DNA of 21,146 nucleotides, from the IMG/VR virus record IMGVR_UViG_3300033141_006338, positions 1 to 21,146 of that record; one strand, written 5' to 3'. Positions 5,438 through 21,146 of this stretch are shown here, piece after piece. The DNA comes from a virus. The notes beneath the pieces were generated by a model. The model ran no database searches and was not told where the DNA came from. It saw only the letters and a program-made list of their open reading frames with translations. Each line of letters starts with the position of its first letter. The stretch's first letter is position 1. Made by a program: the position numbers and the translations under genes.

Positions 5438-8400
5438 CACTCAATCTCCTCCCACGTTCTGCCGTCATCGCGAGAGCGTAGCAGCCGCGCCCCGCCGCCG
5501 TCCCTGCCGCACGCCACGATCAGCCGCCCGCTCCCGTCCTTGCATGCCGACGGCTCCGACGCGTCGCCACCGTCGGTGATCCGCCGCGCCTCAGCCCACT
5601 CGCCCGGCAGTCCGCTGCGCCGGCGCATCCACAGATTCCCCTCGCGCACGTAGAACAGGAAGAGCTGCCCCACCGCGTCGTCCAGCAGATGTGGCTGGCC
5701 CTGGCGCGCCCCGATCTGCACCGCCCACGGCGTCGCCTCCCCGCGAACTACCGGCACACCCGCGTCGTCGGCCAGCCAGGGCACGTCGTTGACGATCGTG
5801 AACTCGCAGCCCGGCGCGCTCTGAGGATCAACCAGCCGCACCTCCACCACCGCCACATACAGGCCCACGTCCCGGTAGGGGCTGCCCGTGTCCTCCGCCG
5901 CCAGCAGGTCGCCCTCCACTATCGGGATCGCGTCACCGAACTCATCGTCGCCATCGGGGCCGCGCGTCCCGGCGGGAATCGTCACCGTCCGCGTCTCAAT
6001 CTGCCCGTCCACCCGCACGCAATCGATCTCCACCGTGTACGTCAGCGGCGCCACATGCCCCGGCGGGAAGATCAGCTTCATCGCAGCCAGCCCAAGCGGG
6101 CGGTCGACCTCAGGCAGCGCCTCGAACCACGCAACGTCGTGCCCCGGCACCCACGGCTCAGCCAGGTCGCCGTCGAAGCGCCCGAAGCCCAGCCCGTCAC
6201 CGAATTCGCTCACGTGTCGCGCAACCCACCGCGGCGCGTTCGTCGGCTGCCCCGATCCGCTCTGCGTGATGAACGCGTCGCTCTCGTCGTACAGGTCCGG
6301 CCGCCAGTGGCAGCCCAGCCTTCGGGACCAGCAGCCGTCGCGCTCGGAGATCCGCACGATCCGCATGTCGTAGCCCGGCTCTGTCCGCTTGGGCAGCGTC
6401 GGCGTCTCGAAGTAGCCCCTCGCGTCCATCGCATCGCCGCGCCCGAACGCCCCTGCGCATTGCGTGCAGTACCCGCGCAAGAATTGCCCGCTCGGCCCGC
6501 GATGCACCGGCCCACCGCAGTAGGGACAGATCGATCCGCTGAGGGCCGAACGCACCTGCTCGCCACCGACCGCCCGGGCCTCGACGAACCAGCGATGTTC
6601 GCCGAACTCCAGGCCCACACGCGCCGCCTCCGGCAGGTTCGCATTGACGCGCTCCTGCCGCCCGGACAGCACGTGCCCGCGCACCTTGCCGCCCAGCAGC
6701 ATCTTGAATTCCGGCGAGTATCCCGCGGCCCGGTACTCGCCCGCGCCGCTCCCGGTGTCGTCAAACGGCTGCCCGCGCAGCTCGAAGCTCGGGTCGACAA
6801 CCTCTCCATCCACCACGATGTCATACTGCCGCGCCTGCGCACCCCACTCGACCAGCTCCTCGAGATCCGCGACATACTTGAACTTCGGCAGCGTCTGTGC
6901 GGTCACCCAGCCACCGTACGCCGTCTCCTCCGTCGCATACGCCTCGCCTGTCTCCGCGTCACGCACTTCCACGCTCCCGGGGCAGAACTGAAAGTTCTTG
7001 TGCCCGCGCAGCGGTCGCCGCCATGCCTCGGGCTTGTAGTCCTCCGCCGACGACGAGTATGCCCGTGCGCCCAGCACCACGTCCGAGTACGGCCAGCCCA
7101 GCACCGGCAGCGATCCCCACACCGGGTCGTGGATCGCCGGCTGTCCGCCGAGGCCCTCCGGCGGCACAACTGCCTCCCAGTAGCCGTCGCCGTCCGTCGT
7201 CGCGATCGTGCCCACGAGCTCGTAGGTCATCGTGTCGATCGCCACGATCTCGATCCCGCTCGCGGGCACTCCCGGCCGCTCGTATACCCGCCCCGCAACG
7301 AGGTTCGGGTCCGTGTAGTGCTCCATCGACCCCAGGTCTACGCTCGTGCTCTCTCCGCGCCGAACCTGGGCTATCTGCCGTGCGCAGCCGTAGCTTTGAT
7401 CCCATGTCCCCCACGACGTCAGCCTGCACGCGACCACGCTATGCCCGGCCTCCGGAAGCCCCGTGAGCGTCACCGCCCCGCCCGCCGGGATCGTGTACGC
7501 ACTGCCGGGATCATCCAGCATCCCCACAAGTACCGTCGTGCCCGGCTCGCCGCGCACTTCCAGCGTCCCGCTGAGCACATCCAGCACCGCCTCCTCCCCC
7601 TCGCTCAGCGCGACCTTCCGTCCCTGCCAGGCGCAGCGCACCTCGTCAACGTGGCGCGCCAGCCGCCTTGCCGCCGTCTGCGGCGTATCATCCCGGCGGT
7701 CGCCTGCCCGCTGGTATATCGCACCATCGCCCTTCGGCACGATCGTCTCCCAGCGGCCGTCGAGGTCCGTCCGGATCGGCGCCAGCACCTGCGCGCCCTC
7801 CACCCACGTTTCCAGCTCGCTGTCCCAGACAAGCTCGTTGTACTCCACGCTGTCCCAGCAGATGACAGGGCCATCCTCGACCGTCTGCAGCTCCAGCTCC
7901 AGGCTCACGTTCGCGCCCTCAACCGGCGTGCCGTCCTCGAGGATCCGCCCTTTCAGCCGGTAGCCCATCGTGAACTCCTCGCTCAGCGGCCCCTCGACGA
8001 ATGCTGCCGGCTGGATCCGACGTCCCCACCACGGGTCATCAACCATGAGCGCGTATCGCCCCGTCGGCGCTTCGGCGCCCTCCTCGGCCATCGCTTCCAG
8101 CAGGTACACCGGCGCTCCGTTCAGCACCACATCCGGGCTCCGCGCCTCGTAGAGGTCTGCGGTCAGCGTCCCCTCGGGCGTCTCGAAGCTCACGCTGCCG
8201 GCGACCGTCTGTGCTCGCTCAACGGTGATCGCCTCCTCGTCGCCGAGCCGCACGATCTCCCGCCGCCACGTGAGGTCCTCTGTTGAGTGCAGGTCATCAA
8301 GCAGTCCCGCCAGCGTATCGACCTCCGGCCATGTGCGCACCGGCTCAGCCTGCAGCCGCTGCAGCAGCGTCGCCATCATCCCCACGCAGTTGCGCTTGTG

Positions 8401-8619
8401 ATAGCTCTCCTCAGCGCTCCGGTCGACATCCTCGTAGTCCAGCGCGTTCGTGCCATCGTCCCGCGCCAGCGCGCTCGCGATGACGATGACATTCGCGGAC
8501 AGCATCGCTTTCGCGGTTGCTCCGTCAATGCTGTCGTCCTCCGCCTCGGCCTCCATCGCCCGTATCTGCGTCACACATTCGATGATCTGCTCTCCGAGCC
8601 CCGGGTTCACAAGCGCCAT
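5437..8619 (-). CDS. Large multidomain tail protein: Ig-like repeats, zinc ribbon, Asp-box C-terminus
   Basis: This 1,060-residue protein has several modules. Residues 1-125 are helical (GEQIIECVTQIRAMEAEAE, GMMATLLQRLQAE). At least two carboxypeptidase-regulatory/Ig-like beta-modules follow, at about 218-305 (LKGRILEDGTPVEGANVSL) and about 439-490 (VAGRVYERPGVPASGIEIV). A zinc ribbon is formed by C698/C701 (CPYC) and C718/C721 (CTQC). The C-terminus at about 960-1060 looks like sialidase-type propeller sequence, with the Asp-box SRDDGRTWEEI just before the stop. No coiled coil or membrane segment typical of a tape measure is present, although the gene occupies that slot. A tail-tip, fibre or host-binding role is inferred. 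The stop TGA overlaps the ATG of the next gene by one base. The start ATG is at 8619, with an AGGTGGGAG-like site upstream. Confidence 0.6.
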   Translation of the reverse strand: MALVNPGLGEQIIECVTQIRAMEAEAEDDSIDGATAKAMLSANVIVIASALARDDGTNALDYEDVDRSAEESYHKRNCVGMMATLLQRLQAEPVRTWPEVDTLAGLLDDLHSTEDLTWRREIVRLGDEEAITVERAQTVAGSVSFETPEGTLTADLYEARSPDVVLNGAPVYLLEAMAEEGAEAPTGRYALMVDDPWWGRRIQPAAFVEGPLSEEFTMGYRLKGRILEDGTPVEGANVSLELELQTVEDGPVICWDSVEYNELVWDSELETWVEGAQVLAPIRTDLDGRWETIVPKGDGAIYQRAGDRRDDTPQTAARRLARHVDEVRCAWQGRKVALSEGEEAVLDVLSGTLEVRGEPGTTVLVGMLDDPGSAYTIPAGGAVTLTGLPEAGHSVVACRLTSWGTWDQSYGCARQIAQVRRGESTSVDLGSMEHYTDPNLVAGRVYERPGVPASGIEIVAIDTMTYELVGTIATTDGDGYWEAVVPPEGLGGQPAIHDPVWGSLPVLGWPYSDVVLGARAYSSSAEDYKPEAWRRPLRGHKNFQFCPGSVEVRDAETGEAYATEETAYGGWVTAQTLPKFKYVADLEELVEWGAQARQYDIVVDGEVVDPSFELRGQPFDDTGSGAGEYRAAGYSPEFKMLLGGKVRGHVLSGRQERVNANLPEAARVGLEFGEHRWFVEARAVGGEQVRSALSGSICPYCGGPVHRGPSGQFLRGYCTQCAGAFGRGDAMDARGYFETPTLPKRTEPGYDMRIVRISERDGCWSRRLGCHWRPDLYDESDAFITQSGSGQPTNAPRWVARHVSEFGDGLGFGRFDGDLAEPWVPGHDVAWFEALPEVDRPLGLAAMKLIFPPGHVAPLTYTVEIDCVRVDGQIETRTVTIPAGTRGPDGDDEFGDAIPIVEGDLLAAEDTGSPYRDVGLYVAVVEVRLVDPQSAPGCEFTIVNDVPWLADDAGVPVVRGEATPWAVQIGARQGQPHLLDDAVGQLFLFYVREGNLWMRRRSGLPGEWAEARRITDGGDASEPSACKDGSGRLIVACGRDGGGARLLRSRDDGRTWEEIE

Positions 8620-8665: not shown

Positions 8666-9745
8666 CTACCTGTGCAGCTCCAGCCGCGCTCTGTGTCGCC
8701 TGGAGGCCTCCACGCGCCGGTTTCGCGCCTCATCCCGACCGTATCTCGTGCACCCCTGCGCCGCCGCAACGTGAGCGCCCGGCCATCGGCAGCTGCTCTC
8801 GCTCTCCTCCGCGATCGGCGCCATTCGCGCATTGCCGGCCGGCGTCAGTCCCGCTCCAGTGCGCGCCCCACGCGGCATGGCCGCACGCGGCCATGACACG
8901 ACCGCGGCCGACGCCCCCGGACCACCATCCCGGCCTGCGTGACCCATCCGCCGCCCCTCACTCACGGGCGCCGCCCTGGCCTCGCACACGACCCGCGGCG
9001 GCGTGCCATCCGCCCCCTCGCGAGGCATCGACTCCTCGCGCGCGTCGGGCAGCGACAGCCCCTCCCGGGCCTGCTCGCTCTCACCCAGCCAGTGCTCCCA
9101 CAGCGCTGCGCGCCACGCCGGCTGCTCGTCCCAGGGCACACCTCCGGGAAGCACACCCGACCACTCAAACCACGCCATCTCCCGCAGGACCGTCCGTGCC
9201 AGCCGTCCGCTCAGCGTTGGCTTCACGCGCCTCGCGGCTGCCTCATTGCGTGCATGAAGCTCCTCCGTGGTCGCGAAATCGTGCCCCTCCCGCAGTGTCT
9301 CCGTGGCGTCATCGTCCGGCAGGTCCAGCCCGGCGACCTCCAGCCCCAGCGCCGTCGCCCGCGCAGCGGCGGTTAGAAGCTCTCGGGTCTCGCCGAGCAG
9401 CGCCATATCCTCAGTCCGTCGCATGTTCACCGCGTCGAGACGTTCCCGGAGCCACGCGCCTCTCGCCGCCGGCCCACGCTCAATCACGCAGCACTCCAGC
9501 TCGTACGCCAGCGCGGCCCTGACGTCCCATGTGCGCTCCACCAACTGCGGCACACCAAACATGCCCAACTCGTACTCCTCAGCCAGCGCCAGCGCCTCAA
9601 CCTGCATGGCCTCGCGTACGGTGAGCGGCCGCAGGACCACCCACGGCCGCTCACCGTTCCTCGCCGCGCCCTCGAAGCGCCGCGTGGTCATCCGCCCCGC
9701 AGCACCAAGCACCCAGGCCTGCTCATGTCGGTCACGCTCCCGCAT
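8666..9745 (-). CDS. Putative tail assembly chaperone-like protein
   Basis: This 359-residue protein is not matched to a family with confidence. The N-terminal half is helical and resembles tail-assembly-associated proteins (WVVLRPLTVREAMQVEALAL, ERTWDVRAALAYELECCVIE, LGETRELLTAAARATALGLEV). Around 200-235 is a Trp-rich stretch (MAWFEWSGV, PAWRAALWEHWLG). The last 110 or so residues are low in hydrophobics and rich in Arg, Gly, Ala and Pro, probably disordered. No better frame was found there. The start is ATG at 9745, with AGGAGG nine bases upstream inside the previous gene (GTG at 9748 is also possible). In most siphophages the tape measure gene would come next, but here the large zinc-ribbon protein does. 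Confidence 0.5.
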   Translation of the reverse strand: MRERDRHEQAWVLGAAGRMTTRRFEGAARNGERPWVVLRPLTVREAMQVEALALAEEYELGMFGVPQLVERTWDVRAALAYELECCVIERGPAARGAWLRERLDAVNMRRTEDMALLGETRELLTAAARATALGLEVAGLDLPDDDATETLREGHDFATTEELHARNEAAARRVKPTLSGRLARTVLREMAWFEWSGVLPGGVPWDEQPAWRAALWEHWLGESEQAREGLSLPDAREESMPREGADGTPPRVVCEARAAPVSEGRRMGHAGRDGGPGASAAVVSWPRAAMPRGARTGAGLTPAGNARMAPIAEESESSCRWPGAHVAAAQGCTRYGRDEARNRRVEASRRHRARLELHR

Positions 9746-10019
9746 CACCCGACGCCTCCTCGGCCAGCGCCCGGCGCATTTTCGCCGCGGTCTCGTTCCG
9801 TCGCCGCGCGAACTCGCCTGCCTCTACCAGCAGCTCTCCTCGCGCGTAGGCCTCCGTCAGCTTCGCGAACTCCTCCGGCTCCAGGGTATGCCCGATCACG
9901 AAGGTCGCCCAGCCGCCCTGCACCTCAATTGCGTGCAGCGGATGCCCCAGTGACCACAACGCAGCCGCCTCCGTCAGGTCCGTGGTCCGATACAGCCGCA
10001 CCGTCATCTCCTCGTTCAT
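9732..10019 (-). CDS. Small protein in the tail-chaperone position
   Basis: This is a 95-residue soluble protein with no confident family. The first half is beta-like (MTVRLYRTTDLTEAAAL, IEVQGGWATFVIGHT). The second half is strongly helical and charged (LEPEEFAKLTEAYARGELLVEAGEFARRR, split by turns). It lies directly after the tail tube gene and overlaps the next gene by 14 bases, which is where many siphophages encode the first tail assembly chaperone (lambda G-like). The ATG at 10019 has GGGGGAGG with five bases between. A lambda-like programmed frameshift into the next frame would have to be +1, and no obvious slippery site is seen, so independent initiation is favoured. Confidence 0.55.
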   Translation of the reverse strand: MNEEMTVRLYRTTDLTEAAALWSLGHPLHAIEVQGGWATFVIGHTLEPEEFAKLTEAYARGELLVEAGEFARRRNETAAKMRRALAEEASGDAGA

Positions 10020-10061: not shown

Positions 10062-10967
10062 TCACGTCAGCGCGACCGGCGCGGTCACTCCATCGAAGCT
10101 CCCAAGTGCCACAAACTCCACGCGCTCCACGATCCGCTGGTCGTGGCTGCCCGGCAGGCCCATGTCACTGCCGGTGTATACCAGCCGCGGCAGCGAGATC
10201 ACCGCGCTCGCCGCACCGCGCGCCAGTGTCACCGCTAGTGCCGCCTCCTGCCCGCTCGCGAAGTCCGCGTACACCGCCTCGTCCACAAAGTCCCGGCTGA
10301 AACTGCCCCAGCAGCGCACGCCCGCGAGGTTGTACATCTGCTGCGGCGCGGTGTCCTCCGTCACCCGCATCCCCTCGGCCATCGCCTCCACCGAGTTGTC
10401 GATCACGATGTCGATCCGCTCGCAGTTGATGTCCTCCGCCAGCGCACCACCGCCCGTCGCGATCTCCACGGTCGCCTCCCGGAAGATGTACGGCACGGCC
10501 GTCGGCAGCGTCGGCGCAGGCGACGTCCCGGACTCCATCTTCAGCGCACCAACGTCCAGGGTGCAGATCACCGGCTGGCCCTTCACCAGGCTCACTGTCG
10601 CCCGCCGCACCTTCGCGTCGGTCAGCTTCTTGACGCTGTTGACGCAGTCGACCACCACCGACGCCCACCGGCCCTGGGCCTCGCTGTCGCGATCCTGGAT
10701 CCACGACAGCAGCGCACTCAGCGAGCCCGGGATCATCGGCACCGCAACCTCGCCCTCGGCCCACTCGCCCGCCGAGTAGTACAGGCTCTGAAACGCGTTC
10801 CTGTCGGCCATATCAAGCAGCGTGATGTTCCGCTGCAGCACGATCTCCTCGCCGCGACCGCCGCTGCGCTTTACCAGCGGCAGCCACGTAGACGGCGCCT
10901 CATATACGCCCTTCTGCGCCTGAATCGAGAAGCCGAAGCTCCCCTCCTGTGCCAGTGCAACGCCCAT
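10062..10967 (-). CDS. Phage tail tube protein
   Basis: This 301-residue protein has the character of the tail tube family found in many siphophages, whose hexamer rings form the DNA channel of the tail. Supporting features are the N-terminal GSFGFSIQAQKGVYEAPSTW, then EIVLQRNITLLDMADRNAF and a long beta-rich body (RRATVSLVKGQPVICTLDV, YIFREATVEIATGG, ERIDIVIDNSVEAM). It ends in RIVERVEFVALG. The ATG at 10967 follows GAGG with a 5-base spacer. It is followed by two overlapping genes in the chaperone position. Its presence argues for a real tail tube, which makes the lack of a visible tape measure puzzling. Confidence 0.8.
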   Translation of the reverse strand: MGVALAQEGSFGFSIQAQKGVYEAPSTWLPLVKRSGGRGEEIVLQRNITLLDMADRNAFQSLYYSAGEWAEGEVAVPMIPGSLSALLSWIQDRDSEAQGRWASVVVDCVNSVKKLTDAKVRRATVSLVKGQPVICTLDVGALKMESGTSPAPTLPTAVPYIFREATVEIATGGGALAEDINCERIDIVIDNSVEAMAEGMRVTEDTAPQQMYNLAGVRCWGSFSRDFVDEAVYADFASGQEAALAVTLARGAASAVISLPRLVYTGSDMGLPGSHDQRIVERVEFVALGSFDGVTAPVALT

Positions 10968-11019: not shown

Positions 11020-11700
11020 TCACTGCCATACTGCCGCCCGCCGCGCCAGCATCGTCATCCTCACCACCCGAAGCGGCCACTCACGCTCCCGCATCCGCTC
11101 CTGCACATCCGGCCGGGCGTTCACCTCGACCACCTGGCTGTGCCAGCAGGTCCCACCCAGATACGGGTCGCTCATCAGCAGGTTGAACAGCTTCCCCGCC
11201 TCATCCACCACCTCGACGTTCGCAGCCTCCCCCTCGCCGTGCTCCCGGACGTAATAAACCTCGAAACGGTAGTCCTGCTGGAAGGTCCGGTTGCTCCCAC
11301 GGTTTAGCGGCTGCTCCATCGTCGTCGGCAGCACCAGCGCGCACGGGAAGCTCTCCGGCGCAATGCCGGGCAGCAGCTCCGGGGAGCCCTGCCCCACCCA
11401 GCGCAGTTCCGGCAACGACCCGTCCACCACCTCAAGCCGCGCGCCGCGCGAGGTCAGGTATTCCCCCGACACCGCCCCCGTCAGCCGCACCGTCGTCAGG
11501 CCCACCAGCTCCGCCACCGTCAACTCCTCGCTGCCCGCCGTGTCCACCAGCCTGACCTGCTGCCCGACCTCGAACAGCTCGTTCGAGCCCACCGTCAGCT
11601 CATCGCCGCCATCCACATCAGCAGTCAGCGCTGTCGCTCCCTGACACAGCAGCCGAATCGCCCGCGCAATCTTGTTCTGATGGAACATATCCGCGACCAT
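11020..11700 (-). CDS. Tail-terminator/tail-completion-like protein with an inserted beta-domain
   Basis: This 226-residue protein sits in the canonical slot between head closure and tail tube. A short N-terminal helix (NKIARAIRLLCQ) is followed by a beta-rich segment at about 25-92, with ELTVGSNELFEVGQQVRLV, GSEELTVAELVG and GARLEVVDG. This is similar in length and pattern to the insert of the preceding head-closure-like protein. After that come features of a tail terminator: FPCALVLPTTMEQP, YRFEVYYVREHGEGEAANVE and a C-terminal LRVVRMTMLARRAAV. The fold assignment is by position and pattern, not by a clear family signature. The ATG at 11700 is preceded by GAGGAG with six bases between. The product would join head and tail in the virion. 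Confidence 0.6.
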   Translation of the reverse strand: MVADMFHQNKIARAIRLLCQGATALTADVDGGDELTVGSNELFEVGQQVRLVDTAGSEELTVAELVGLTTVRLTGAVSGEYLTSRGARLEVVDGSLPELRWVGQGSPELLPGIAPESFPCALVLPTTMEQPLNRGSNRTFQQDYRFEVYYVREHGEGEAANVEVVDEAGKLFNLLMSDPYLGGTCWHSQVVEVNARPDVQERMREREWPLRVVRMTMLARRAAVWQ

Positions 11701-11791: not shown

Positions 11792-12331
11792 CTACAGCTC
11801 GCGCGCCAGCAGCCGCAGGTGATGACCCGCGCCCGCCACGTCCTCAACCTCGATCACCTCGTAGCGATCAACCGCCACCACCGGATCGCCCTCGAGATGA
11901 TCGCAGGTCAGCGCAGGCGTCACGTACACTGTCCCGTCCTCCACCTCGCGCACCGTCACGGTCTCCATCGTGTCGCCGCTGCCAACCTCCAGGCACTGCC
12001 CCTCGACCGGAGCCTCCAGCGCCCCGAATGACAGCAGGTCACTGCCGGCAGGCGCATCTGCGGCCAGCGTCCACGTCTCCGGTCGCAGCACCAGTCGGTC
12101 CGACGCCCGCACGTCCGCCGGCTCGGCGTACACCACGTGCGTCACGCTCTCCCGACGCCCAAGCAGCCCGTCATCGCTCAGCGTTCCCGCCGGCGCCATC
12201 CGCACCCGCAGGCCCGTCATCGCGCGCTCATACGTCGGCGTCATCGGCGCACCATCACTGCTCAGCGCCACCTCCGGCCGCAGCACCTCCGCGCTCCCGG
12301 TCAGCAGCGCCAGGAAGGTGTCATCCGCCAT
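11792..12331 (-). CDS. Head-closure-like neck protein with an inserted beta-domain
   Basis: This 179-residue protein is most likely the SPP1 gp16/head-closure type protein that plugs the connector after packaging. The outer parts fit: VTHVVYAEPADVRASDRLVL (about 63-82) and RYEVIEVEDVAGAGHHLRLL (about 156-175) together make the usual small beta-barrel ending. Between them, residues about 88-154 look like an insertion. They are rich in beta-strands and Gly/Asp turns and contain GQCLEVGSGD, ETVTVREVEDGTVYV and LEGDPVVAVD. The tail-terminator-like neighbour carries a similar segment. The ATG at 12331 has GAGGAG with a 9-base spacer. An out-of-frame ATG lies between them and is probably unused. 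A 91-base gap with a hairpin follows. Confidence 0.68.
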   Translation of the reverse strand: MADDTFLALLTGSAEVLRPEVALSSDGAPMTPTYERAMTGLRVRMAPAGTLSDDGLLGRRESVTHVVYAEPADVRASDRLVLRPETWTLAADAPAGSDLLSFGALEAPVEGQCLEVGSGDTMETVTVREVEDGTVYVTPALTCDHLEGDPVVAVDRYEVIEVEDVAGAGHHLRLLAREL

Positions 12332-12350
12332 CGGTCATCGCTCCTCTCAG
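12324..12350 (-). repeat. Duplicated translation-initiation block, copy 1
   Basis: These 27 bases match 2462-2488 with a single mismatch (12333 G versus 2471 T on the plus strand). On the minus strand the block reads: stop codon TGA of the upstream gene, GAGGAG ribosome binding site, 9-base spacer, ATG and the first codons of the next gene. Confidence 0.8.
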
Positions 12351-13000
12351 ATCACGCATAGCTCCGGCCGCCGATGGCGCCCCAAAAGCTCCTCGGCCTC
12401 GGCCACCAGCCGCCTGATCGTGTACCCGTGGCGCCCTTCCTCGTAACGCACGCTGTAGTCGCCGATCCGTACCGCCTCCACACCGCCCTGCTCGCCGCTG
12501 TTGCGCGCCAGCAGCTCCGCCGCCGTTAGCTTCGCCTGCGCCAGCCGCACATCCGCTGGAGGCGTCTCATAGCCCCAGTCAAGCGTTACCTCCACGTTCT
12601 GATTCCCCTCCGGAAAGCGCACGCCGAACGTGCTTGACGCCGCCAGCACCAGCGCGCCCTCCTCGGCGTAAAACAGCCAGTCGCTCTCCTCAAGCGCCCG
12701 GCCCTCAACCACCACGCTCTCGATCTGTGTCACCGGATGCAGGCCGTGCGGGCTCAGCAGCAGCACGCGCGTGCCGCTACCGTCCAGCCGCACCGTCTCG
12801 CCGGGGTGCAGCATGAAGTCGCGGCCCGCAACCCCGTCCACCGCCTCCCGCGTCTGCGCGAGCAGCCCCGTGATCGCGGTCTCCAGCTCCTCGGCGCTGC
12901 CCCACCCGCTCGTATCGTAGCCCTGCAGTTGTGCCAGGACGTCCGCCGCGCTGCAGTAACTGACGAGGCTCACCGTCGTGAACACTCCGCTGGCTACCAT
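12347..13000 (-). CDS. Head-tail connector protein, gp6-like (neck adaptor)
   Basis: This is a 217-residue protein of the HK97 gp6/SPP1 gp15-like adaptor group that forms the ring below the portal. Evidence is its position and a recognisable pattern: an N-terminal helical part (SAADVLAQLQGY, then ITGLLAQTREAVDGVAGRDF), and a central beta part with VRLDGSGTRVLLL and GLHPVTQIESVVVEG. Then comes VTLDWGYETPPADVRLAQAKLTAAELLAR, split here by position, which is the classic adaptor helix. The ATG at 13000 overlaps the stop of the giant protein by seven bases, so translation is probably coupled. The upstream GTG at 13012 is a weaker choice. The stop is 15 bases before the next gene and forms part of a 27-base block repeated near 2462-2488. 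Confidence 0.82.
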   Translation of the reverse strand: MVASGVFTTVSLVSYCSAADVLAQLQGYDTSGWGSAEELETAITGLLAQTREAVDGVAGRDFMLHPGETVRLDGSGTRVLLLSPHGLHPVTQIESVVVEGRALEESDWLFYAEEGALVLAASSTFGVRFPEGNQNVEVTLDWGYETPPADVRLAQAKLTAAELLARNSGEQGGVEAVRIGDYSVRYEEGRHGYTIRRLVAEAEELLGRHRRPELCVI

Positions 13001-16000
13001 TCCTCGGACCACACTCCTTCATCATTGCGCACACGCACCTTCCAAAAGTGCGTCTGCTCCGAGCCAAGCTGCGCACCGGCGTACTCTACCGTCTGCGCGT
13101 CCGAAACCACCACGCCGCTGTCCCACAGGTCACCCTCGCCCGCATCCAGCTTCTCCTGGCTCGAGCTTACCAGCACCTGAAAGGCCGTCTGCGTGCGCCC
13201 CTCACGATCCTGGAACTCCCACGACAGCTCCGGCTTCGGGTCCGCCACCCGCGTCGGATTCACCGCGCCCTCCACGCGTAGACCGCTTACGCTCGGACGA
13301 TTCTCGCTCCGCCAACGCGCGATCCGCCATGCATAAAGCTCCGGCGACGGATCCTCGGCGGTCGCCCGCGTCAGTCGGAAGCGCAGCCGAATACTATCGA
13401 GGCCGACCTCCGTCAGGCCCGCGCCGTTCCACGTGGCACGCGCGTCCACCTCATCGCCCACACCATCGAAGTCCCCGTGGTCAAACCCCGCCAGCGGCTC
13501 ATCGGTCTCCGCGTCCACCACGCAGACACTCACCTCGCCGCCCTTCGGGTCCACGTTCAGACGCAGGTTGTCCCACGTCTCTCGCTCGCGCACCAGCTCG
13601 CTCGTCTCCAGCTCGCCGGTCGTCTCACCGTCACTCAGTCGATACAGCGCCTCGCCGTCGAGCCGAATCGTCGCCATGTTCCCCTCGAGCCCCGTCTTGC
13701 CGGAGATATACCAGTACAGCCGCCTGCGCCCCAGACGCACAGGGTTCGAGCGCGGCATGATATAGCCCGCGTTGAAGGGCGGGGAGTACCGCGGAATCAG
13801 CGGCTGCCCCAGCGGGTTCTGGACATGTGCGCCGTCCTCCGAGGCGTACAGCGTCACATCCGACAGCGTCACGCCCCCATCGTCCACCACCAGCCCCGGC
13901 GTGTTCGGCCCAAACCACTCTGGATGTGGCCAGTGGAACCAGCCGTAGCACGGCACGATCATCGCGTTCCGCCACGGCCGCCGGCGCAGGTTCCGCATGT
14001 CCTCGCTCATCAGGCAGGCCAGCGGCCGCGAGAGCTCCTGGTTCAGGTTGTTGGCGTTGTTCACAATCGTCTTCGCCCGCGCGTAACCCAAAAAGCGGTT
14101 CCCTCTGGCGCAACGCCACGGGTTCTGCACGAATCGCGGCTCATGATCCCAGTTCCCGTACAACGTCGCGCCGCCGCCCTCCGGCACCACCTTGTCGATT
14201 CCTTCGTCCGCCGGCGTCAGCGGATTGAGCTGCGGATCGAAATGCTTCTCGGGGTCGAATGAATAGCGGTCCGGTGCCCCGGTCAGCGCGCAGCCGGCGA
14301 TGTGGTCGCTGCTGCTTCCGGCGGTAAAGAACAAAACCCAGTCACCCTCCGCCACCTCGAACACCGCGTTCAGCGCCGGCAGCTCGGTGTAGTGCGCCCC
14401 AAAGCGCTCCAGAACACGCTTCAGTTGCTCGATCTCGAGGAACGGATTGCGCGGGTCGGGGTCATCCTCCCAGACCACGTGTCCGAGCGTCTCATCCCAC
14501 GTCCCGAGAATGTATCCCGCCCGCTGAACACCGGACTCATCCTCACCGACCGCCAGCGCCCGGATACGCTCATACTCCGGCTCATACTCCATCCACGTCG
14601 GCCAGTAGGCCAGCGAGTGCCGCCACGTGCCAGGCTCCATGATCGCGTCCTGAATCGCCTGCGGGTCGGAGTACTGCTCCGGAATCCGAACCTCCCGCTC
14701 AACGCCCTCAGTCCGCCACAGCTTGATGCTTTCACCCGTGTGCGGATCGGTCACCAGGAAGGTATCGTCCGGCGCCGTCGTCTTCGCGTACACGCCCGGC
14801 CCGTCCACCTCGATGCGCTCCAGCAGAATCCGGCACTGCCAGCTCGCAAACGTCCCCTCGCCGCGCTTGCCGAAACGCACCTGGTTTGCGCTCATCTCCA
14901 CCGGATAGCGCTGCAGCCGTCCGTAGTTGATGCACGTGTAGCCGCCCTGCGAGTTCATCGCGGCCGTCTCCACCGACTGGAACCGGTAGTTGCCCTCACA
15001 CAGGTCGCACTCCAGACGATACAGGTGGCCGTCGTAGGTCGGCGGCTCCAGCCGCCCGGGCCTCGTCACGATCGCCACATCTCCGGCCGCCGGCGCCTCC
15101 GAGAGCTGACCGTCCAGTGTCAGCGATTGGCCCGCCTGGCTGCTGTCGGCCACTCGCAGCTTCTGGTTCCGCGCGTTGCCGGTGAGCATGTGCAGCTCAG
15201 CCCCGGCCCAGAAACCGTCAGCCTCGTCAATGCCGCTGGCCACGATCGTGTTCGTCGTGCAACCCTCGCCGCAGACGAGGCGCGCCTCGTCCCCCTTGTA
15301 GTAGTTGACCGCCCCGATGGCCACCGGCAGATCACCAGGCGTGTGCGCGTTCGGCACATACAGCGTCACCCGCAGCGTCATCGGCGCCATCGGCTCCGGC
15401 AGCCACGGCGCGAGCTGGTAGTTCACACCCACATACACGCCCGACGCATCGACGTCGATCTGCGCGTGGTCGTCCATATTTGTGATCGACGTGCCTGCCG
15501 CCTCGCTGACCAGCACGGCATCGCCCGGCACGCGCTCGTTGTAAGGATCGTCGTGGTCGGGCAGCCCCAGCAGGTAGCTGAAACGGTTGCCCTGCCGACG
15601 CGATCCCACGTCCAGCCGGCAGTACTGGTCCGCCGCGCCGATGAGCGTCGCGACGCCCGAGCCTTCGGCCACGTCGGCATCGAAGCTCCCGTCCCACGTC
15701 GCCCGCATCGTCAGCGTCCCCGCGCCATCCTCCTCGCGCGGCACGTAGTGCCGCCCGCGCTCGTAGAGCGCCTCCACGGCTGCGGCGCTGATCGCATCAT
15801 TCCACACGCACAGCGTGTCCGTGACGTGGCCGCGCGATGCCGGCAGATCTGCGGTGCCGGGCCCGACGATGATCTCCGCAGGCGGGCCCACCAGCGCCCA
15901 CGCGCCCGTCACTGACGCCACCTCGATACCGTCGAGGTACAGCTTCAGCACGCCATCCTCCGGGCCGGCGCTGAAATCCCACGTCGCGACCACATGCCGC

Positions 16001-16269
16001 CATTGCACCGGGGTGCCGGTGAACAGTGCCTGCTTCACCACCCCACTCACACGCGTCTCGAATACCCACCGCTCCTGGTCGATTCGAATCCGCATCTGAT
16101 TGTCGTCATCCACGATCACCTTGACGATCTCGTTGCGCTGCCCCCAGACGGCATGGTGAAACCACAGCGCAATGGTGCCCTTGTCGCCACTCCCGACCTC
16201 GACATTCCCGATCGCCTCGTAACTCACCGCGCCCTCCGGCCCGGTGTAGAGCATCTGCGGTCGAGCCAA
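12994..16269 (-). CDS. Giant multidomain virion protein: LamG-like lectin, glycosidase-like core, Fn3/rhamnosidase N-like C-terminus
   Basis: From the TTG at 16269 this is 1,091 residues. About residues 20-170 form a LamG/concanavalin-like beta-sandwich (GTIALWF near the start, then WRHVVATWD and LKLYLDGIEVASVTG). About 345-385 is a short beta-module of a kind common in phage structural proteins (LRVADSSQAGQSLTLDG, EAPAAGDVAIV). About 520-900 resembles the beta-propeller glycosidase/sialidase-like proteins of polysaccharide-degrading bacteria (VTLYASEDGAHVQNP, NPVRLGRRRLYWYISG). About 900-985 resembles the beta-sandwich that commonly follows in those proteins (GEVSVCVVDAETDEPLAGF, ATWNGAGLTEVGLDSIRLRF). 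The last 100 residues match the Fn3-like N-domain of bacterial alpha-L-rhamnosidases (LWDSGVV, THFWKVRVRNDEGVWS). It sits between capsid and connector genes, so a head decoration, head fibre or glycan-binding role is inferred. No catalytic residues could be assigned. Its stop overlaps the connector start. Confidence 0.7.
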   Translation of the reverse strand: MARPQMLYTGPEGAVSYEAIGNVEVGSGDKGTIALWFHHAVWGQRNEIVKVIVDDDNQMRIRIDQERWVFETRVSGVVKQALFTGTPVQWRHVVATWDFSAGPEDGVLKLYLDGIEVASVTGAWALVGPPAEIIVGPGTADLPASRGHVTDTLCVWNDAISAAAVEALYERGRHYVPREEDGAGTLTMRATWDGSFDADVAEGSGVATLIGAADQYCRLDVGSRRQGNRFSYLLGLPDHDDPYNERVPGDAVLVSEAAGTSITNMDDHAQIDVDASGVYVGVNYQLAPWLPEPMAPMTLRVTLYVPNAHTPGDLPVAIGAVNYYKGDEARLVCGEGCTTNTIVASGIDEADGFWAGAELHMLTGNARNQKLRVADSSQAGQSLTLDGQLSEAPAAGDVAIVTRPGRLEPPTYDGHLYRLECDLCEGNYRFQSVETAAMNSQGGYTCINYGRLQRYPVEMSANQVRFGKRGEGTFASWQCRILLERIEVDGPGVYAKTTAPDDTFLVTDPHTGESIKLWRTEGVEREVRIPEQYSDPQAIQDAIMEPGTWRHSLAYWPTWMEYEPEYERIRALAVGEDESGVQRAGYILGTWDETLGHVVWEDDPDPRNPFLEIEQLKRVLERFGAHYTELPALNAVFEVAEGDWVLFFTAGSSSDHIAGCALTGAPDRYSFDPEKHFDPQLNPLTPADEGIDKVVPEGGGATLYGNWDHEPRFVQNPWRCARGNRFLGYARAKTIVNNANNLNQELSRPLACLMSEDMRNLRRRPWRNAMIVPCYGWFHWPHPEWFGPNTPGLVVDDGGVTLSDVTLYASEDGAHVQNPLGQPLIPRYSPPFNAGYIMPRSNPVRLGRRRLYWYISGKTGLEGNMATIRLDGEALYRLSDGETTGELETSELVRERETWDNLRLNVDPKGGEVSVCVVDAETDEPLAGFDHGDFDGVGDEVDARATWNGAGLTEVGLDSIRLRFRLTRATAEDPSPELYAWRIARWRSENRPSVSGLRVEGAVNPTRVADPKPELSWEFQDREGRTQTAFQVLVSSSQEKLDAGEGDLWDSGVVVSDAQTVEYAGAQLGSEQTHFWKVRVRNDEGVWSEEW

Positions 16270-16433: not shown

Positions 16434-17375
16434 CTACGCGCTCAGGCCCAGGTTCACCGCCAGTACAACCGCGTCATTGTCCTCGAACGCTACCGCAACG
16501 CGTGTGGTGATCGTGTAGATGTTCACCCCGCGCAGGATGTCGCGGTCCTTGTCGATGCGGATCTCCCGGTGGATGCCGAAGACCAGGTTCTCGCGCGGCG
16601 TCAGGAAGCCGTAGCTCAGGTTCGAGCCCGAATAACCGTCCACGCCATCCTGGTCGGTCGGAATGCTCGGCACCGCGGTCAGCGGCACACCCATGTACGG
16701 AGGCGCCGTCGCGCTGGTCATCGCCTCATCGCCGAGCGCGCTGGCGCGATCGCTGAACGTGTCGTGCCAGTCCTGCACGGCGCCGGGCGCGAAGTAGTAG
16801 CGCAGGTCGCCGTGGTTGCGCTTGTAGCGATTCGGCAGCGCCTTGTACATCGCTGAGAGCGCGCTCTTGTCGAGCGTCGCGCCCTCAAGGTTAACCTTGT
16901 TCGCGCTCTCGGCGAGCTTCCGCCAGCCGTCGAGGCCCTGCAGGAAGCTGTCGCCGGAGGACGTGTCGCCCTGTATCGCGAGCTCCTCGAGGTCGGTCGC
17001 GGTCTGCCGCGCCATCACACGCACAACGGTGTTCTCGAGGTCCCCGCGCTCGATGCTGTCCTCGAGCGCCTGCATCGTCAGCTCGAAGGGTGTGATGATG
17101 TCCACCGCCGTGAGCGTCACCTTCGAGAAGCCGGGCTCAGACAGCGTTGCCGGCGCCACGCCCTCGGTGCGAAGCTGACTGACGCGCCCGCTGGTCGCAA
17201 TCTTGTCGAGCTCCATGACCGCACTGTGCATCCGCACCACGCGCGCGTCCTTGAGCATCACCGACTGGTCCACAGACATCTCTACAAACCGGTCGTACTG
17301 CCCGGTGTTGAGCAGCCCACCACCGAGCAGATCCGTGGTATCGACGGCCTTCTGCAGCATCTCTTCCTGGCTCAA
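16434..17375 (-). CDS. Major capsid protein (HK97 fold)
   Basis: This is the main shell protein, about 313 residues from the TTG at 17375 (316 if GTG at 17384 is used). Evidence is its position after portal and protease and its alpha/beta pattern. Near residues 85-120 there is a helix-rich 'spine' region (ITPFELTMQALEDSIERGD). The C-terminal segment runs through RIDKDRDILRGVNIYTIT and ends in VAFEDNDAVVLAVNLG, as in many phage capsid families. The N-terminus (SQEEMLQKAVDTTDLL) is short and lacks a cleavable delta domain, so scaffolding is probably provided by the protease extension. A 164-base gap with a strong hairpin follows, which may set capsid mRNA abundance or stability relative to the next gene. 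Confidence 0.9.
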   Translation of the reverse strand: MSQEEMLQKAVDTTDLLGGGLLNTGQYDRFVEMSVDQSVMLKDARVVRMHSAVMELDKIATSGRVSQLRTEGVAPATLSEPGFSKVTLTAVDIITPFELTMQALEDSIERGDLENTVVRVMARQTATDLEELAIQGDTSSGDSFLQGLDGWRKLAESANKVNLEGATLDKSALSAMYKALPNRYKRNHGDLRYYFAPGAVQDWHDTFSDRASALGDEAMTSATAPPYMGVPLTAVPSIPTDQDGVDGYSGSNLSYGFLTPRENLVFGIHREIRIDKDRDILRGVNIYTITTRVAVAFEDNDAVVLAVNLGLSA

Positions 17376-17383
17376 AACGAACA

Positions 17384-17389
17384 CTCCCT
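17384..17389 (-). promoter_or_regulatory. Ribosome binding site deciding a TTG start for the capsid gene
   Basis: AGGGAG on the minus strand lies 8 bases before TTG at 17375. The alternative GTG at 17384 would overlap this site and leave no spacing, so TTG is the better start. Confidence 0.55.
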
Positions 17390-17453: not shown

Positions 17454-18323
17454 TCACACGACCCCGCTCCACATGTCGCCCCCCGCGCTTCGCTCCTGGC
17501 CGGCGATGGCGCGAGATACCCCCGGCGTCGGCTCCTCCGATTCATCGGCCTCCGCCTCCGCCAATTCGCCATCCTCTGCGCCCTCCGCCATCTTCTCCAG
17601 CGCATCATTCAGTCGCGCCAGCGCATCCTCCACGCTCTTGCGCAGCGCCCGCATCGCCGCCAGCTCCTCGGCCAACTCCTCACCGCCGTCGTCCATCTGC
17701 TTCACCTCGCTCTTCGCGAACGGCCACAGACTCCGCGCCGCCTGCACCGCCGCCCGTCCGACGCGCGCAAGCATCGCGGCCTCGTCCTCACCATCCGGGG
17801 CCGGCTCGGTCATGCCCTCCGCGGCCTTCGCCAGCGTCGAAAGATAGGTGTCCGGGTTCGCGGCCGCGGCGGGTCGGCACACCGCCACGTGATCCAGCTC
17901 CACGTCATCGATGAACCGAATCTGACGCCCGGCCTCATCGTCGTGGCGCCAGAACGCCTTCGTCACGCGCCCCCCAACGCTCAGACCGTATCTCCGCCCC
18001 TGTGACACCTTCTCGAACAGCCGCACCGCCTCGGGATTGCTCTCATCGAGCCGCCCCGCGATCCGAAACTGATCGTTGTCCACCCACGCCTCCTCCACTA
18101 CGCCCAGCTCCTCCAGCGCTCCCGCGTCGTGCGAAGGCAGCAGGTCCAGGCCGGTCTGCGTGGCCATCTTCCGGATCGCGTTTGGGGTCATCCGCTCCTT
18201 CTGCCTGTCAAGCCGCGTCGATGACGCCACCCCCTCAAATCGCAGCGTGCCGTCCGCGCCGCGCCAGACCTTCGTCATCGGCAGCGACACGGCGAACTCG
18301 CCCATCTGTGCCTCTGCTCCCAT
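17454..18323 (-). CDS. Prohead protease fused to a scaffold-like C-terminal extension
   Basis: This is a 289-residue capsid maturation protease of the HK97/XkdF-like serine type. The candidate catalytic residues are H65 in LLPSHD and S115 in YGLSVGG, with E142 or D144 in DVELDHVAV as the acidic partner. The protease domain ends near residue 165 at the usual conserved run ending in a Pro-Ala-rich segment. After it come about 120 residues rich in Glu, Ala, Leu and Lys, including a probable coiled coil at about 210-260. This is the expected composition of an internal scaffold. The capsid protein has no long N-terminal delta domain, which fits scaffolding being supplied by this extension. The ATG at 18323 overlaps the portal stop (ATGA), with GGAGGT six bases upstream. 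That the protease and scaffold parts act together is inference. Confidence 0.85.
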   Translation of the reverse strand: MGAEAQMGEFAVSLPMTKVWRGADGTLRFEGVASSTRLDRQKERMTPNAIRKMATQTGLDLLPSHDAGALEELGVVEEAWVDNDQFRIAGRLDESNPEAVRLFEKVSQGRRYGLSVGGRVTKAFWRHDDEAGRQIRFIDDVELDHVAVCRPAAAANPDTYLSTLAKAAEGMTEPAPDGEDEAAMLARVGRAAVQAARSLWPFAKSEVKQMDDGGEELAEELAAMRALRKSVEDALARLNDALEKMAEGAEDGELAEAEADESEEPTPGVSRAIAGQERSAGGDMWSGVV

Positions 18324-19546
18324 CAGCTCACCTCCGTGCTCGTCGCCCGCTCGCCGAGCGGCTCGAGGCCCTGCTTCGCCCGAATCTCATCCGGCGTCCA
18401 GACGCCGATCTTCGAGTATATCTCGGCGATCTGGGCCTGCTGATGCTCCTCGCTCAGATCCATCTCCCGGAAGCGGAACTCCCAGCCGTCGATGCCCATC
18501 TGCTCCCGTATCATCCGGTTGATCTGATACTCCACGCGCCTCTGTTCAGGCCGCACCACCTGCTCGCGGAAGGTCTTGTCCTGGTCGCGGCTATTCGCAA
18601 GGTTCGCGTTCTCCACGATCGTGATCTTGCTCGGCGGCACCCGATGGACCATCAGAATCTCGTCGCGATTGGCCTTCCGGTACTTCAGGAAGCTCGCGTC
18701 ATCGCCGCCGGTCTCCCCCAGCGGCTCCAGTCGCACCGTTGAAGAGCCTGGCATCTCAAGCACCAGCGTCCGGTGCGCCTTCGCCTTGACCTCCGTCTCC
18801 ATGAAACGCCGGATCTGATGCAGGACATCCTTCGGAGGCGGGCCGCCCTCGAAGATCACCGCCATCCGCGGCATCGCATGGTGTTCGAAGAAGCTCACGT
18901 TGTACTCAGCCGCCGCGCGATCGCCGCCCACCGCAGTGATCGCGGGCATGATGTCGGGCATCCCGTAGTAGCTCGACTGAGGCGTGTACTTCCGAAAGTG
19001 CACGATCTCATTGAGCGTTTCACCATCATCCGCGGACACCCCACCGAGGTTCCGGAACTCCTGCCTTCTGCCGTCCCGCATCTGCACGAAGCCGCTGCGG
19101 TCGCTCTTGACCCTCATCGTCGTCGCGGGCACGTGGTAGAAGCCGTCGATCTCCCCCGCGCTGCTGCGCGTGACCTCCAGGTATCCGTTCCCGACGGTCT
19201 CCACGTCGGTCCAGATCGCACGCATAATCTCCGTGAAGGTCATCTCCGGATTGCAGTGGTTGAACAGGTCCTCCAACCTCTGCCTCTCCTCCGGCTGCGC
19301 GTCGTCGCGTACGCGCACGAACCGGTATCCCAGCCCGCAGATGTTCACGGTCTTCGCATCAACACACGCGCGGTGCGTCGAGTTGATTTCGTAAAGCTGC
19401 GCGAGCGCTTCGAGCGAATACGGGGGCTCCTTCACCTCCCCGGCGTCGTAGGCGTCCTGCCAGCGACTGTCGGGCAGCTGTCGCGTCTGCCCCTTTCCCT
19501 CCTCTCCGCCGATGATGTGCGCCTTCATCAGTCTGTCCTCGTCCAT
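18323..19546 (-). CDS. Phage portal protein (PBSX/HK97-type)
   Basis: This is the dodecameric portal at the unique capsid vertex, through which DNA enters and leaves and on which the neck assembles. The 407-residue length, the position directly after terL and the run YTPQSSYYGMPD followed by AEYNVSFFEHHAMPR are typical of the phage_portal family, especially PBSX-like members. The C-terminal part has charged helices and the segment WTPDEIRAKQGLEPL, a common portal ending. The ATG at 19546 is preceded by GGAGGT at an 8-base spacing. The stop codon overlaps the start of the protease gene by four bases (ATGA), implying translational coupling. Confidence 0.93.
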   Translation of the reverse strand: MDEDRLMKAHIIGGEEGKGQTRQLPDSRWQDAYDAGEVKEPPYSLEALAQLYEINSTHRACVDAKTVNICGLGYRFVRVRDDAQPEERQRLEDLFNHCNPEMTFTEIMRAIWTDVETVGNGYLEVTRSSAGEIDGFYHVPATTMRVKSDRSGFVQMRDGRRQEFRNLGGVSADDGETLNEIVHFRKYTPQSSYYGMPDIMPAITAVGGDRAAAEYNVSFFEHHAMPRMAVIFEGGPPPKDVLHQIRRFMETEVKAKAHRTLVLEMPGSSTVRLEPLGETGGDDASFLKYRKANRDEILMVHRVPPSKITIVENANLANSRDQDKTFREQVVRPEQRRVEYQINRMIREQMGIDGWEFRFREMDLSEEHQQAQIAEIYSKIGVWTPDEIRAKQGLEPLGERATSTEVS

Positions 19547-19658: not shown

Positions 19659-21146
19659 TCACACCACGTGCGCCCTCATCACACCCCCGCGCCAGCGCTC
19701 CACCGCCGAGTTGACTGCCCCCGCTACCGCGTCGGCGACATCCTTCGAGCCGCCGTGGCGGTGATCCACCTTGTCTCCGCGAATCATCTCCAGCCCCTTA
19801 CACTCGCGTAGCAGCGGTTCGTACCGATACCACCGCAGGCGGCCGTCGTAGAGCAGCTCCTTCATCGTCTCGTAGGCCGAGGCCGTTCGATCCACCGACG
19901 CGATCTCCACATTCAGGCCCTTACGCCGCAGAATCTGCCTGCTGTCGGCGCTCTGGAAGCCGTCGAAGGTCACCAGACCGATCGCGAAGCCGCGCGCGGA
20001 GATCTGCTCGATCAGCCCGCGGATCTGCGCCAGCTCCAGCTCGCCGTCGCTCGGGGGCACGATACGCAGCATCAGGTCCACGATCACGGTCGGCCGATCG
20101 CCCCCATCCTCGGCCTCGCAGTGCGCCATGGCGATCCCGCAGGCGTCGCGCTTCAGGCCGAGATCGACATGCACGTAGTACTCTCTCCCCGGCTGCGGCC
20201 GGATCTCGTCCGTCAGGTGCCCATGCGCGTCAAAGGCGATCGGCAGCTCAGCATCGACCGCCCGCTCGAGCACGTCGGTGTCGCGGAAGAATGGCTCGAA
20301 TGCCTCGGCCGGTCGCGCTGCGAGGTCGCGCAGGGCGCGCGTTGCATTACGCTCGAACTCGTCACGATACTCGACCGGCACCTCCAGGCCCTCACACTCG
20401 AAGGTCTCCCCGCAGTACGTACCGGCGGGCTTCACCTCCCACGTCGCCCGCCGTGAGGCGTAGATCTTCGGGTTACTCTCAGCCTCCTGCAGCTTGCGCT
20501 CGAGGAAGTCGCCCCGGTGCCGCGGCGATGAGATCATGATCAGCAGGCCCTGATCGAGGAACCGGCTGCGGATCCGTCGCTGCAGCGCGTTATAGATCTC
20601 CTCCGCCGAGTCCCGCCTGCCCCCATCGCTTTCGAGCAGCCAGCTCGCCTCATCGATCACCGCCCCGAGCACGTTGTAGCCCAGCGGGTAGGTCTCCGCG
20701 GAGTTGCCGCAGATCACCGCGATGTCCTTGGGAAAGCGCAGCTCACGGCTCATCGTCTTCGGCTTGTGCCGCGCGAACCAGGGAGATCGCTCAATCCGCT
20801 GCAGGATCTCGCCAAAAACCACCCGGCGCGCCTGCTCGCCATTGGTGGACATGTTCATGAAGCAGATCGTGCTGCCTTCGGCGATCCCCAGCGTCCTCTG
20901 TGGTGACCTCAGGCACAGCGTCCGGTGAATCTGGTATGTGATCGCGAGACTCGCGGTGTATGACTTGCCTGCGCCGATACCCCAGCACAGGGCGGCCTCG
21001 TTATAGTCTCCCTCGAAGATCTCTTCGAGCACGTCAATGATCTTCGGATATACGTCTCCTCTGAGCCCCAGATACTCCTCGTCCAGCACGAAATCACGCA
21101 ATCGCGCCGGATCTTCCTCCCATGTTTCGGCGTCCTCGCTCGGCAT
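19659..21146 (-). CDS. terL: Phage terminase large subunit (TerL)
   Basis: This is the packaging motor ATPase and nuclease, which docks on the portal, pumps DNA into the prohead and cuts the concatemer. Visible motifs are a Walker A-like loop GIGAGKS (about residues 56-62), a Walker B segment ending in D165-E166, and the coupling-type motif ISSP at about 205-208. The C-terminal half has RNase H-like nuclease acidic residues: D328 in VHVDLG, D395 in TFDG and D469 or D472 in the KDVADA segment. The 495-residue length is normal for the family. The ATG is the last three bases of the window, so a longer N-terminus or a start further upstream cannot be excluded. The portal gene follows after 112 bases that contain a hairpin. 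The small terminase subunit is not in the window and may lie just upstream. Confidence 0.95.
   Translation of the reverse strand: MPSEDAETWEEDPARLRDFVLDEEYLGLRGDVYPKIIDVLEEIFEGDYNEAALCWGIGAGKSYTASLAITYQIHRTLCLRSPQRTLGIAEGSTICFMNMSTNGEQARRVVFGEILQRIERSPWFARHKPKTMSRELRFPKDIAVICGNSAETYPLGYNVLGAVIDEASWLLESDGGRRDSAEEIYNALQRRIRSRFLDQGLLIMISSPRHRGDFLERKLQEAESNPKIYASRRATWEVKPAGTYCGETFECEGLEVPVEYRDEFERNATRALRDLAARPAEAFEPFFRDTDVLERAVDAELPIAFDAHGHLTDEIRPQPGREYYVHVDLGLKRDACGIAMAHCEAEDGGDRPTVIVDLMLRIVPPSDGELELAQIRGLIEQISARGFAIGLVTFDGFQSADSRQILRRKGLNVEIASVDRTASAYETMKELLYDGRLRWYRYEPLLRECKGLEMIRGDKVDHRHGGSKDVADAVAGAVNSAVERWRGGVMRAHVV

Follow-up and report, generated by a model that had tools for sequence, protein, structure and literature searches.

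A giant, putatively glycan-recognising protein in a gene-transfer-agent-like cluster of the class Candidatus Zipacnadia

Kogay et al. 2022 define gene transfer agents (GTAs) by six features: proteins derived from tailed phages, encapsidation of mostly random host DNA, full endogenisation, incomplete packaging of their own genome (a matter of head size), mostly vertical inheritance, and delivery of DNA (PMC9662315). The same paper describes RcGTA of Rhodobacter capsulatus (Rhodogtaviriformidae) as a phage-derived head-tail cluster that is inherited vertically and co-diverges with its host, and two further papers describe its adsorption through carbohydrate-binding surface proteins, with head spikes and tail fibres that bind the capsule (PMC7296036, PMC10218006). 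A further source attributes the difficulty of detecting GTAs outside the alphaproteobacteria to their resemblance to prophages (PMC11841831). Here, we analyse a stretch of 21,146 nucleotides listed as IMG/VR virus record IMGVR_UViG_3300033141_006338 (the window), along with its relatives, focusing on a giant protein of 1,091 residues that is encoded between the capsid gene and the head-tail adaptor gene.

The window corresponds to G000:C152:253-21398 in a 4.24-Mb draft genome, and the relatives of its cluster belong to the phylum Armatimonadota, class Candidatus Zipacnadia (records including candidate division WS1 and Armatimonadetes bacterium). We consider it probable that the cluster encodes a domesticated, vertically inherited, GTA-like particle and that the giant protein is its glycan-recognition arm, most likely at the neck; the functional parallel with RcGTA is a reason for seeing the giant as such an arm, its own glycan binding being putative. 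The evidence from sequence comprises the identity of the cluster genes, single copy, synteny, co-divergence with host genes, selection, a codon overlap, and one in-frame fusion. Three of the six GTA features were examined and all three were found, namely tailed-phage-derived proteins (TerL, portal, S78 protease, HK97 capsid, adaptor, and tail tube), full endogenisation (housekeeping flanks in family f1, a yidC-jag site in f1 and f6, and a capsid gene in 22 of 46 draft genomes), and mostly vertical inheritance with co-diversification (with the exceptions of a single branch within f6 in the giant tree and of the deep branches, which are not resolved). We infer that the particle packages and transfers host DNA. 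The first-pass annotation of the window had treated the giant as a phage gene, a view that gives way here to a vertically inherited, single-copy, GTA-like chromosomal locus.

In the proposed mechanism, the giant would have been gained in the Zipacnadia lineage between capsid and adaptor, and the overlapping stop and start codons would probably couple its production to that of the head-tail adaptor. It would stand at the neck as a long arm, with the LamG and sandwich domains outermost, the propeller in the middle, and the Ig domain beside the adaptor, where it may bind, and perhaps trim, polysaccharide on the surface of sister cells ahead of delivery of the packaged DNA by the particle. About twelve such arms might be present, provided that the adaptor forms a dodecamer like that of RcGTA. 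More tentatively, and with less than even confidence, we suggest that a GTA lineage was domesticated independently, in or before the ancestor of the order, and that its particle lost the tape measure and carries giant arms on the neck adaptor, fused to it in one lineage. If so, it would represent an independent GTA origin in an uncultured class, against which ideas on the persistence of such particles could be tested, and a giant linked to the neck adaptor would be a novel way for a particle with no detectable tape measure to locate its recipient.

Such a lineage looks unreported as far as open-access searches reach: the records returned named no GTA for Zipacnadia or Armatimonadota and held no virus, phage, or gene-transfer wording for Zipacnadia, and one of the Armatimonadota papers lists incomplete prophages in Fimbriimonadales. 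RcGTA differs in host phylum and has a head fibre of 325 residues compared with the 1,091 of the giant; the placement of the recognition gene between capsid and adaptor and the lack of a detected tape measure gene are both unlike RcGTA. The Zipacnadia capsid profile matched no chain of the PDB sequence set at E<=0.01 (RcGTA is deposited as 6TBA).

Modules of the giant protein

The giant gene and its domains are as follows.

12994..16269, minus strand: giant gene, 1,091 residues, stop at 12994 and TTG start at 16269
15604..16266, minus strand: domain 1, residues 2-222, pentraxin/LamG-type jellyroll (Laminin_G_3, fold match)
14686..15603, minus strand: domain 2, residues ~223-528, second sandwich with an insertion, like sialidase lectin or ConA-like domains (moderate)
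13645..14685, minus strand: domain 3, residues ~529-875, five-bladed propeller of GH43/GH130 type (fold match)
12997..13308, minus strand: domain 4, residues 988-1091, Rha78A-type N-terminal Ig domain (Pfam and fold match)

The position given by the first-pass annotation, between capsid and connector, is confirmed, with the capsid gene upstream and a phrog_442 adaptor gene downstream on the minus strand. Nor is the open reading frame (ORF) a product of chance, as homologues covering more than half of the query are found in 26 of the 41 genomes of the order, its own included. The 1,091-residue start agrees in the alignment with the nearest homologues, which open with M-A-R-P-Q or similar at the equal position; an ATG start at 16395, giving a 1,133-residue form, was rejected because these homologues give it no backing.

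The three kinds of module proposed from the letters were all recovered, and structure prediction with a fold search returned the lectin- and glycosidase-like folds whose absence had been named as counting against the proposal. In Pfam, Laminin_G_3 (PF13385) matches residues 16-165 (5.4e-10; 40.1 bits, above the curated cut-off of 27.6) and Ig_Rha78A_N (PF25788) matches residues 994-1089 (1.7e-20; 73.7 bits, above the cut-off of 27.4); at E<=1, they are matched in 12 and 21 of 21 giant homologues, respectively. An AlphaFold2 model built from 21 homologues reached a predicted local distance difference test (pLDDT) score of 83.7 and a predicted template modelling score (pTM) of 0.77, with low-confidence loops inside residues 688-769, and its folds were compared by running VIA-align on the list from Foldseek. 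Residues 2-222 resemble the LamG domain of PAPP-A and pentraxins (Z ~17-21). A separate model of residues 218-532 (pLDDT 79.7) shows likeness to ConA-like domains, the sialidase lectin domain among them, at 3-10% identity and with Z of at most 12.3. Matches to clostridial neurotoxin binding domains were also present and appear to reflect the common jellyroll fold. The C-terminal 100 residues are homologous to the N-terminal Ig domain of GH78 alpha-L-rhamnosidases (6i60, 3w5m), with Z 16.7 for residues 988-1091 and 36% identity across 104 residues to 6i60. These rhamnosidases possess a catalytic domain, whereas the Pfam scan at E<=1 found no GH78 catalytic domain in the giant, which is thus not placed in GH78. 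The predicted modules are of glycan-binding type, and fold likeness by itself proves no function.

The likeness to secreted polysaccharide-acting proteins that had been noted thus stands, whereas the Planctomycetes-like host does not, the relatives being Armatimonadota. Since Ig_Rha78A_N matches many further genes of the phylum, acquisition of the giant from the host repertoire, as had been suggested, is plausible.

Whether the giant might be an active polysaccharide depolymerase borne by the particle, as had also been suggested, turns on the propeller. Residues ~529-875 share the fold of GH43/GH130-type propeller glycosidases (Z ~16, root-mean-square deviation 3.7-4.7, 249-283 aligned residues), the fold matches of the middle region include GH43 enzymes and sialidases that carry lectin-like sandwiches, and four acidic residues inside the propeller (D655, D667, D757, E873) are invariant across 18 alignment rows. 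However, structural identity is 6-10%, the acids are placed by sequence rather than by active-site geometry, no glycosidase family was matched in Pfam at E<=1, and the lone enzyme-family match among 21 homologues is a weak polysaccharide-lyase hit (0.018) in one member. A depolymerase is therefore unlikely, though worth entertaining; the predicted propeller fold is retained from that suggestion, the glycosidase family by sequence is not, and catalysis is putative.

Junction with the head-tail adaptor

Two further features define the junction.

12347..13000, minus strand: head-tail adaptor (phrog_442, 2.8e-25), overlapping the giant gene
12994..13000, minus strand: ATGGTAG, the adaptor start codon overlapping the giant stop codon

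A mostly conserved W-S-E-x-W closes the giant frame, whose TAG overlaps the adaptor ATG as ATGGTAG in 19 of 21 genomes, an ATGA overlap in G019 raising the tally to 20 of 21 (G004 and G007 both counted, though one locus); in G016, a 250-nt gap replaces the overlap. In G042, from another order of Zipacnadia, giant and adaptor form a single uninterrupted frame of 1,248 residues. Because of the overlap and this fusion, giant and adaptor would be made together and be able to act as one chain, and a neck location would follow; translational coupling, neck location, and glycan binding are thus all predicted.

The first-pass annotation had proposed display on the capsid, and a GTA-like particle might indeed carry the giant on capsid vertices or hexamers: its gene comes after the capsid gene, and RcGTA bears capsule-binding head spikes on capsid pentamers, as two papers describe (PMC7296036, PMC10218006). 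The stop/start overlap, however, joins the giant to the adaptor and not to the capsid, at least four f3 genomes have a glycosyltransferase gene between capsid and giant, and the G042 giant is fused to the adaptor. The head-cluster location thus stands, neck display appears better supported than capsid display, and the latter is in our view rather doubtful.

The giant appears to be a lineage-specific insertion between capsid and adaptor. Three IMG/VR phage contigs (L098, L099, L100) carry a capsid homologous to that of Zipacnadia (31-33% identity). In L100, the phrog_442 adaptor follows the capsid with no gene of any size between, and L099 has a 145-residue frame after the capsid, then a weakly matching adaptor candidate, and no giant; L098 ends before the interval becomes readable. 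In the Armatimonadota genome G047, the adaptor (phrog_442) likewise follows the capsid directly. An ordinary tail fibre in an unusual position was discounted, since the giant lies between capsid and adaptor in 19 of the 19 regions whose contig extends to the capsid gene, with an intervening glycosyltransferase gene in several f3 genomes, and since a giant is missing from this position in the phages available for comparison.

Clear tape measure proteins are encoded in L099 (1,017 residues) and in L100 (1,380 residues), whereas none was recognised in the Zipacnadia clusters, where the space between the tail tube gene and the gene of a 1,060-residue protein was read in 16 regions (G004 and G007 being one locus). 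This gap spans 0.75-2.8 kb with stop-to-stop frames of at most 385 residues, the longest being the window's own chaperone-like frame, and beyond the overlapping chaperone pair the families share no conserved frame; an estimated ~0.4 kb is left in the window. The RcGTA tape measure has ~216 residues by the segments given in an extract of PMC7296036; one of that size would find no room in the window gap and could fit the gaps of others. Because a short unrecognised protein could fit some gaps, we infer the loss rather than observe it. Given L099, L100, and G047 without a giant and the phages with a tape measure, what distinguishes this lineage appears to be that it gained the giant and lost its tape measure or shortened it drastically. 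Elsewhere, phrog_28 tape measures occur in 2 of 11 genomes. One such match, G000:C72:31643-32986, lies in the window's own genome, probably within another prophage.

Inheritance, synteny, and chromosomal site

That the cluster is inherited vertically, taken as a claim by itself, is in our opinion highly likely. A concatenated tree of seven particle proteins from 20 genomes (six rows less than half filled; G020 and G004 left out) has 15 of 17 inner branches starred and recovers f1, f3, f4, and f6 each as one clade at 100%, with branching inside f1, f3, and f6 identical to that of the rpoB tree wherever the latter is resolved (G016, G020, and G042 being long rows in it). The giant tree recovers the same four clades and unites f2, f3, and f6 with starred support, as does rpoB. 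Giant distances correlate with those of alaS (r = 0.90) and rpoB (r = 0.79), and those of the other particle genes give r of 0.50-0.89 and 0.37-0.79, respectively, rank correlations with rpoB reaching 0.65 at the top. Median identities within and between families are 0.77/0.68 for capsid and 0.56/0.35 for the giant, compared with 0.77/0.65 for rpoB and 0.70/0.54 for alaS. The giant distances and tree omit the broken copy of G005, and the giant tree and the alaS and rpoB distances omit G004, which is still counted in the distribution, synteny, capsid, and overlap tallies. The loci L033 (G004:C113) and L035 (G007:C38) are 99.66% identical across an 11,111-bp end overlap although their rpoB proteins differ by ~13%; one of these contigs is probably misbinned.

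The capsid profile matched 22 of 46 class genomes, all drafts, at one locus each (in G002 and G016 as two pieces at the one locus): 7/10 in f1, 9/15 in f3, 3/4 in f6, 2/7 in f4, 0/3 in f2, 0/2 in f5, and 1/5 among the other class genomes (G042). Across 291 phylum genomes, it gave three further distant matches at E<=1e-10. Gene order is shared in 21 of 22 fetched regions (some partly incomplete), and the giant adjoins the adaptor gene in 21 of 22, G020 being the exception. The terminase side of f1 holds genes for a TIM-barrel protein, GT9, CO dehydrogenase, a ferredoxin-type protein, UppS, and ribosome recycling factor by Pfam, plus a peptidase and an Rrf2-like regulator by eye; part of this set is inverted in G005, whose flank yielded no GT9. 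At the opposite end, two genomes of f1 (G005, G007) and two of f6 (G014, G019) have yidC and jag as neighbours, though not always in the same orientation.

Features of prophage integration were not found beside the cluster in searches for tyrosine recombinases, tRNA genes, and repeats (serine recombinases were not searched). No tRNA gene occurs in 29 loci; a tyrosine recombinase lies within 5 kb in one (G011) of the seven genomes with at least 5 kb of contig on both sides, and on no cluster contig of five further genomes whose flanks are short on one or both sides. In 7 of 8 genomes, the longest direct repeats shared by the flanks are no longer than chance predicts; in the eighth, G022, the repeat measures 16 bp, compared with at most 15 bp in 30 shuffles.

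The cluster genes also appear to be under purifying selection, dN/dS (ratio of nonsynonymous to synonymous substitution rates, NG86) being 0.064-0.369 in all 18 gene-pair comparisons from three genome pairs, a set without terminase and portal; the giant itself gave 0.159, 0.168, and 0.369. The packaging motifs are intact where checked: those that we take to be the Walker A, DEA, and nuclease aspartates of the terminase are present in 12 of 12, and the presumed His and Ser of the S78 protease in 16 of 16. Together, dN/dS and the intact motifs speak against a decayed prophage for the family overall, though G005 (giant) and G016 (capsid) have broken or mis-assembled genes.

An ordinary temperate phage lineage that closely tracks its hosts, with the giant as a phage receptor-binding protein, would account for the head, tail, holin-like, and amidase genes, the patchy presence (22/46), the listing of cluster fragments as viral in IMG/VR, the tyrosine recombinase 4 kb off in G011, and the G022 repeat that exceeds its 30 shuffles. 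It sits badly with the single copy, the congruent trees, the shared housekeeping flanks, a divergence that parallels host genes across the whole order, and the f1 flanks read, in which no replication or integration genes were recognised; we regard it as improbable. In 5 of 12 IMG/VR loci (L089, L091, L093, L096, L097), the proteins are 99.5-100% identical to loci of metagenome-assembled genomes (MAGs), and, if the GTA reading is true, these "virus" fragments would be pieces of host genomes. Scans of the viral collection with exact giant patterns returned nothing, and those with the giant alignment returned two contigs, of G004 and G003 type; these scans are not exhaustive, as L095 and L097, found by capsid, also contain a giant. 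Among INPHARED phages, the Ig domain alone was matched, in two records.

A domesticated particle kept for a non-transfer purpose, such as killing relatives or programmed lysis, would agree with the holin-like and amidase genes and with the disputed benefit of GTAs (extract of PMC6209664), but is improbable, as the genes for terminase, portal, protease, and capsid have been kept, their motifs intact in those examined, although a device lacking a head or DNA would have no use for them.

Several observations weigh against a domesticated, vertically inherited, GTA-like particle. The particle, its packaged DNA, and its transfer are predictions from the genes of a ~21-kb cluster. No capsid gene was detected in 24 of 46 class genomes, including five of one genus, among them G012, which is 96% complete, and therefore losses or missing contigs must be assumed; broken contigs may account for part of these absences (G008 ends soon after the giant) but hardly for all (G012). 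The f3 and f4 flanks that were fetched hold other genes, not the yidC site. The seven-protein tree does not resolve the order of families (52/63, 62/75) and leans (62/75) towards f1 with f3, contrary to a starred rpoB branch; within f6, the giant tree joins G014 and G019 (91/90), whereas the rpoB and seven-protein trees join G019 and G026. Rank correlation with rpoB is 0.05 for terL, -0.08 for the gene of a 780-residue protein, and 0.21 for portal. The G005 giant (L041, G005:C8 1242-4448) is split over three consecutive ORFs, and the G016 capsid gene (L061, G016:C71 3094-4003) lies in two pieces with a stop codon between, which may represent decay and frameshifts or assembly errors. In G020 (L066, G020:C88 13509-16817), a giant homologue of 30% identity stands beside unrelated tail-like genes (weak phrog_4577 and phrog_1259 matches, a moderate phrog_1084 match), apparently a separate particle or phage with the recognition protein in common. 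The G042 fusion is known from one MAG contig, where internal initiation of the adaptor is possible. Finally, at least four f3 genomes (G011, G024, G029, G036; loci L047/L046, L063, L069, L049) have, between capsid and giant, a glycosyltransferase gene akin to the GT9 gene found in the f1 flank; G016, also of f3, lacks it.

Remaining cluster genes and side loci

In order of transcription, the cluster encodes TerL, portal, S78 protease, HK97-type capsid, giant, head-tail adaptor, the conserved g12 and g11, tail tube, chaperone-like frames, the 1,060-residue protein, the 780-residue tail/hub-like protein, a 232-residue protein, small proteins including a holin-like one, and an amidase. The genes other than giant and adaptor are as follows.

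19659..21146, minus strand: large terminase (PHROG match; Walker A, DEA, and nuclease Asp motifs)
18323..19546, minus strand: portal protein (Pfam and PHROG matches)
17454..18323, minus strand: S78 prohead protease (aligned His and Ser conserved)
16434..17384, minus strand: major capsid protein, HK97 type (Phage_capsid 2.6e-9, phrog_1623 2e-83)
11792..12331, minus strand: g12, conserved gene without a PHROG match
11020..11700, minus strand: g11, conserved gene without a PHROG match
10062..10967, minus strand: tail tube (Phage_tube_2)
8666..9748, minus strand: tail-chaperone-like frame (overlapping -1-frame pair in relatives)
5437..8619, minus strand: 1,060-residue protein at the phage tape-measure position, no family match above cut-off
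2735..5077, minus strand: tail/baseplate hub-like protein (phrog_1887, 1.9e-5)
755..1042, minus strand: holin-like small protein (Phage_holin_6_1, 4e-4, below cut-off)
1..657, minus strand: N-acetylmuramoyl-L-alanine amidase (Amidase_2)

The chaperone pair behind the tail tube consists of conserved overlapping frames offset by -1 in the window and its relatives, and resembles what we take to be the gpG/gpGT tail chaperones of phages. From gene position, a baseplate role might be guessed for the 1,060-residue protein. In G011 and G024, a gene that looks GT4-like by eye lies between portal and protease, and the inserted glycosyltransferases could act in glycosylation of the particle.

In L163 (G041:C36), a 1,029-residue LamG and propeller protein related to the giant lies at 14816-19253, followed by a 313-residue ORF and a small ORF that is holin-like by eye, with no other cluster genes found in the 19.5-kb stretch. 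Short portal-capsid clusters occur in two genera of another Armatimonadota family (L164, G047:C24 13220-18522; L167, G116:C739), possibly as remnants or another domesticated element.

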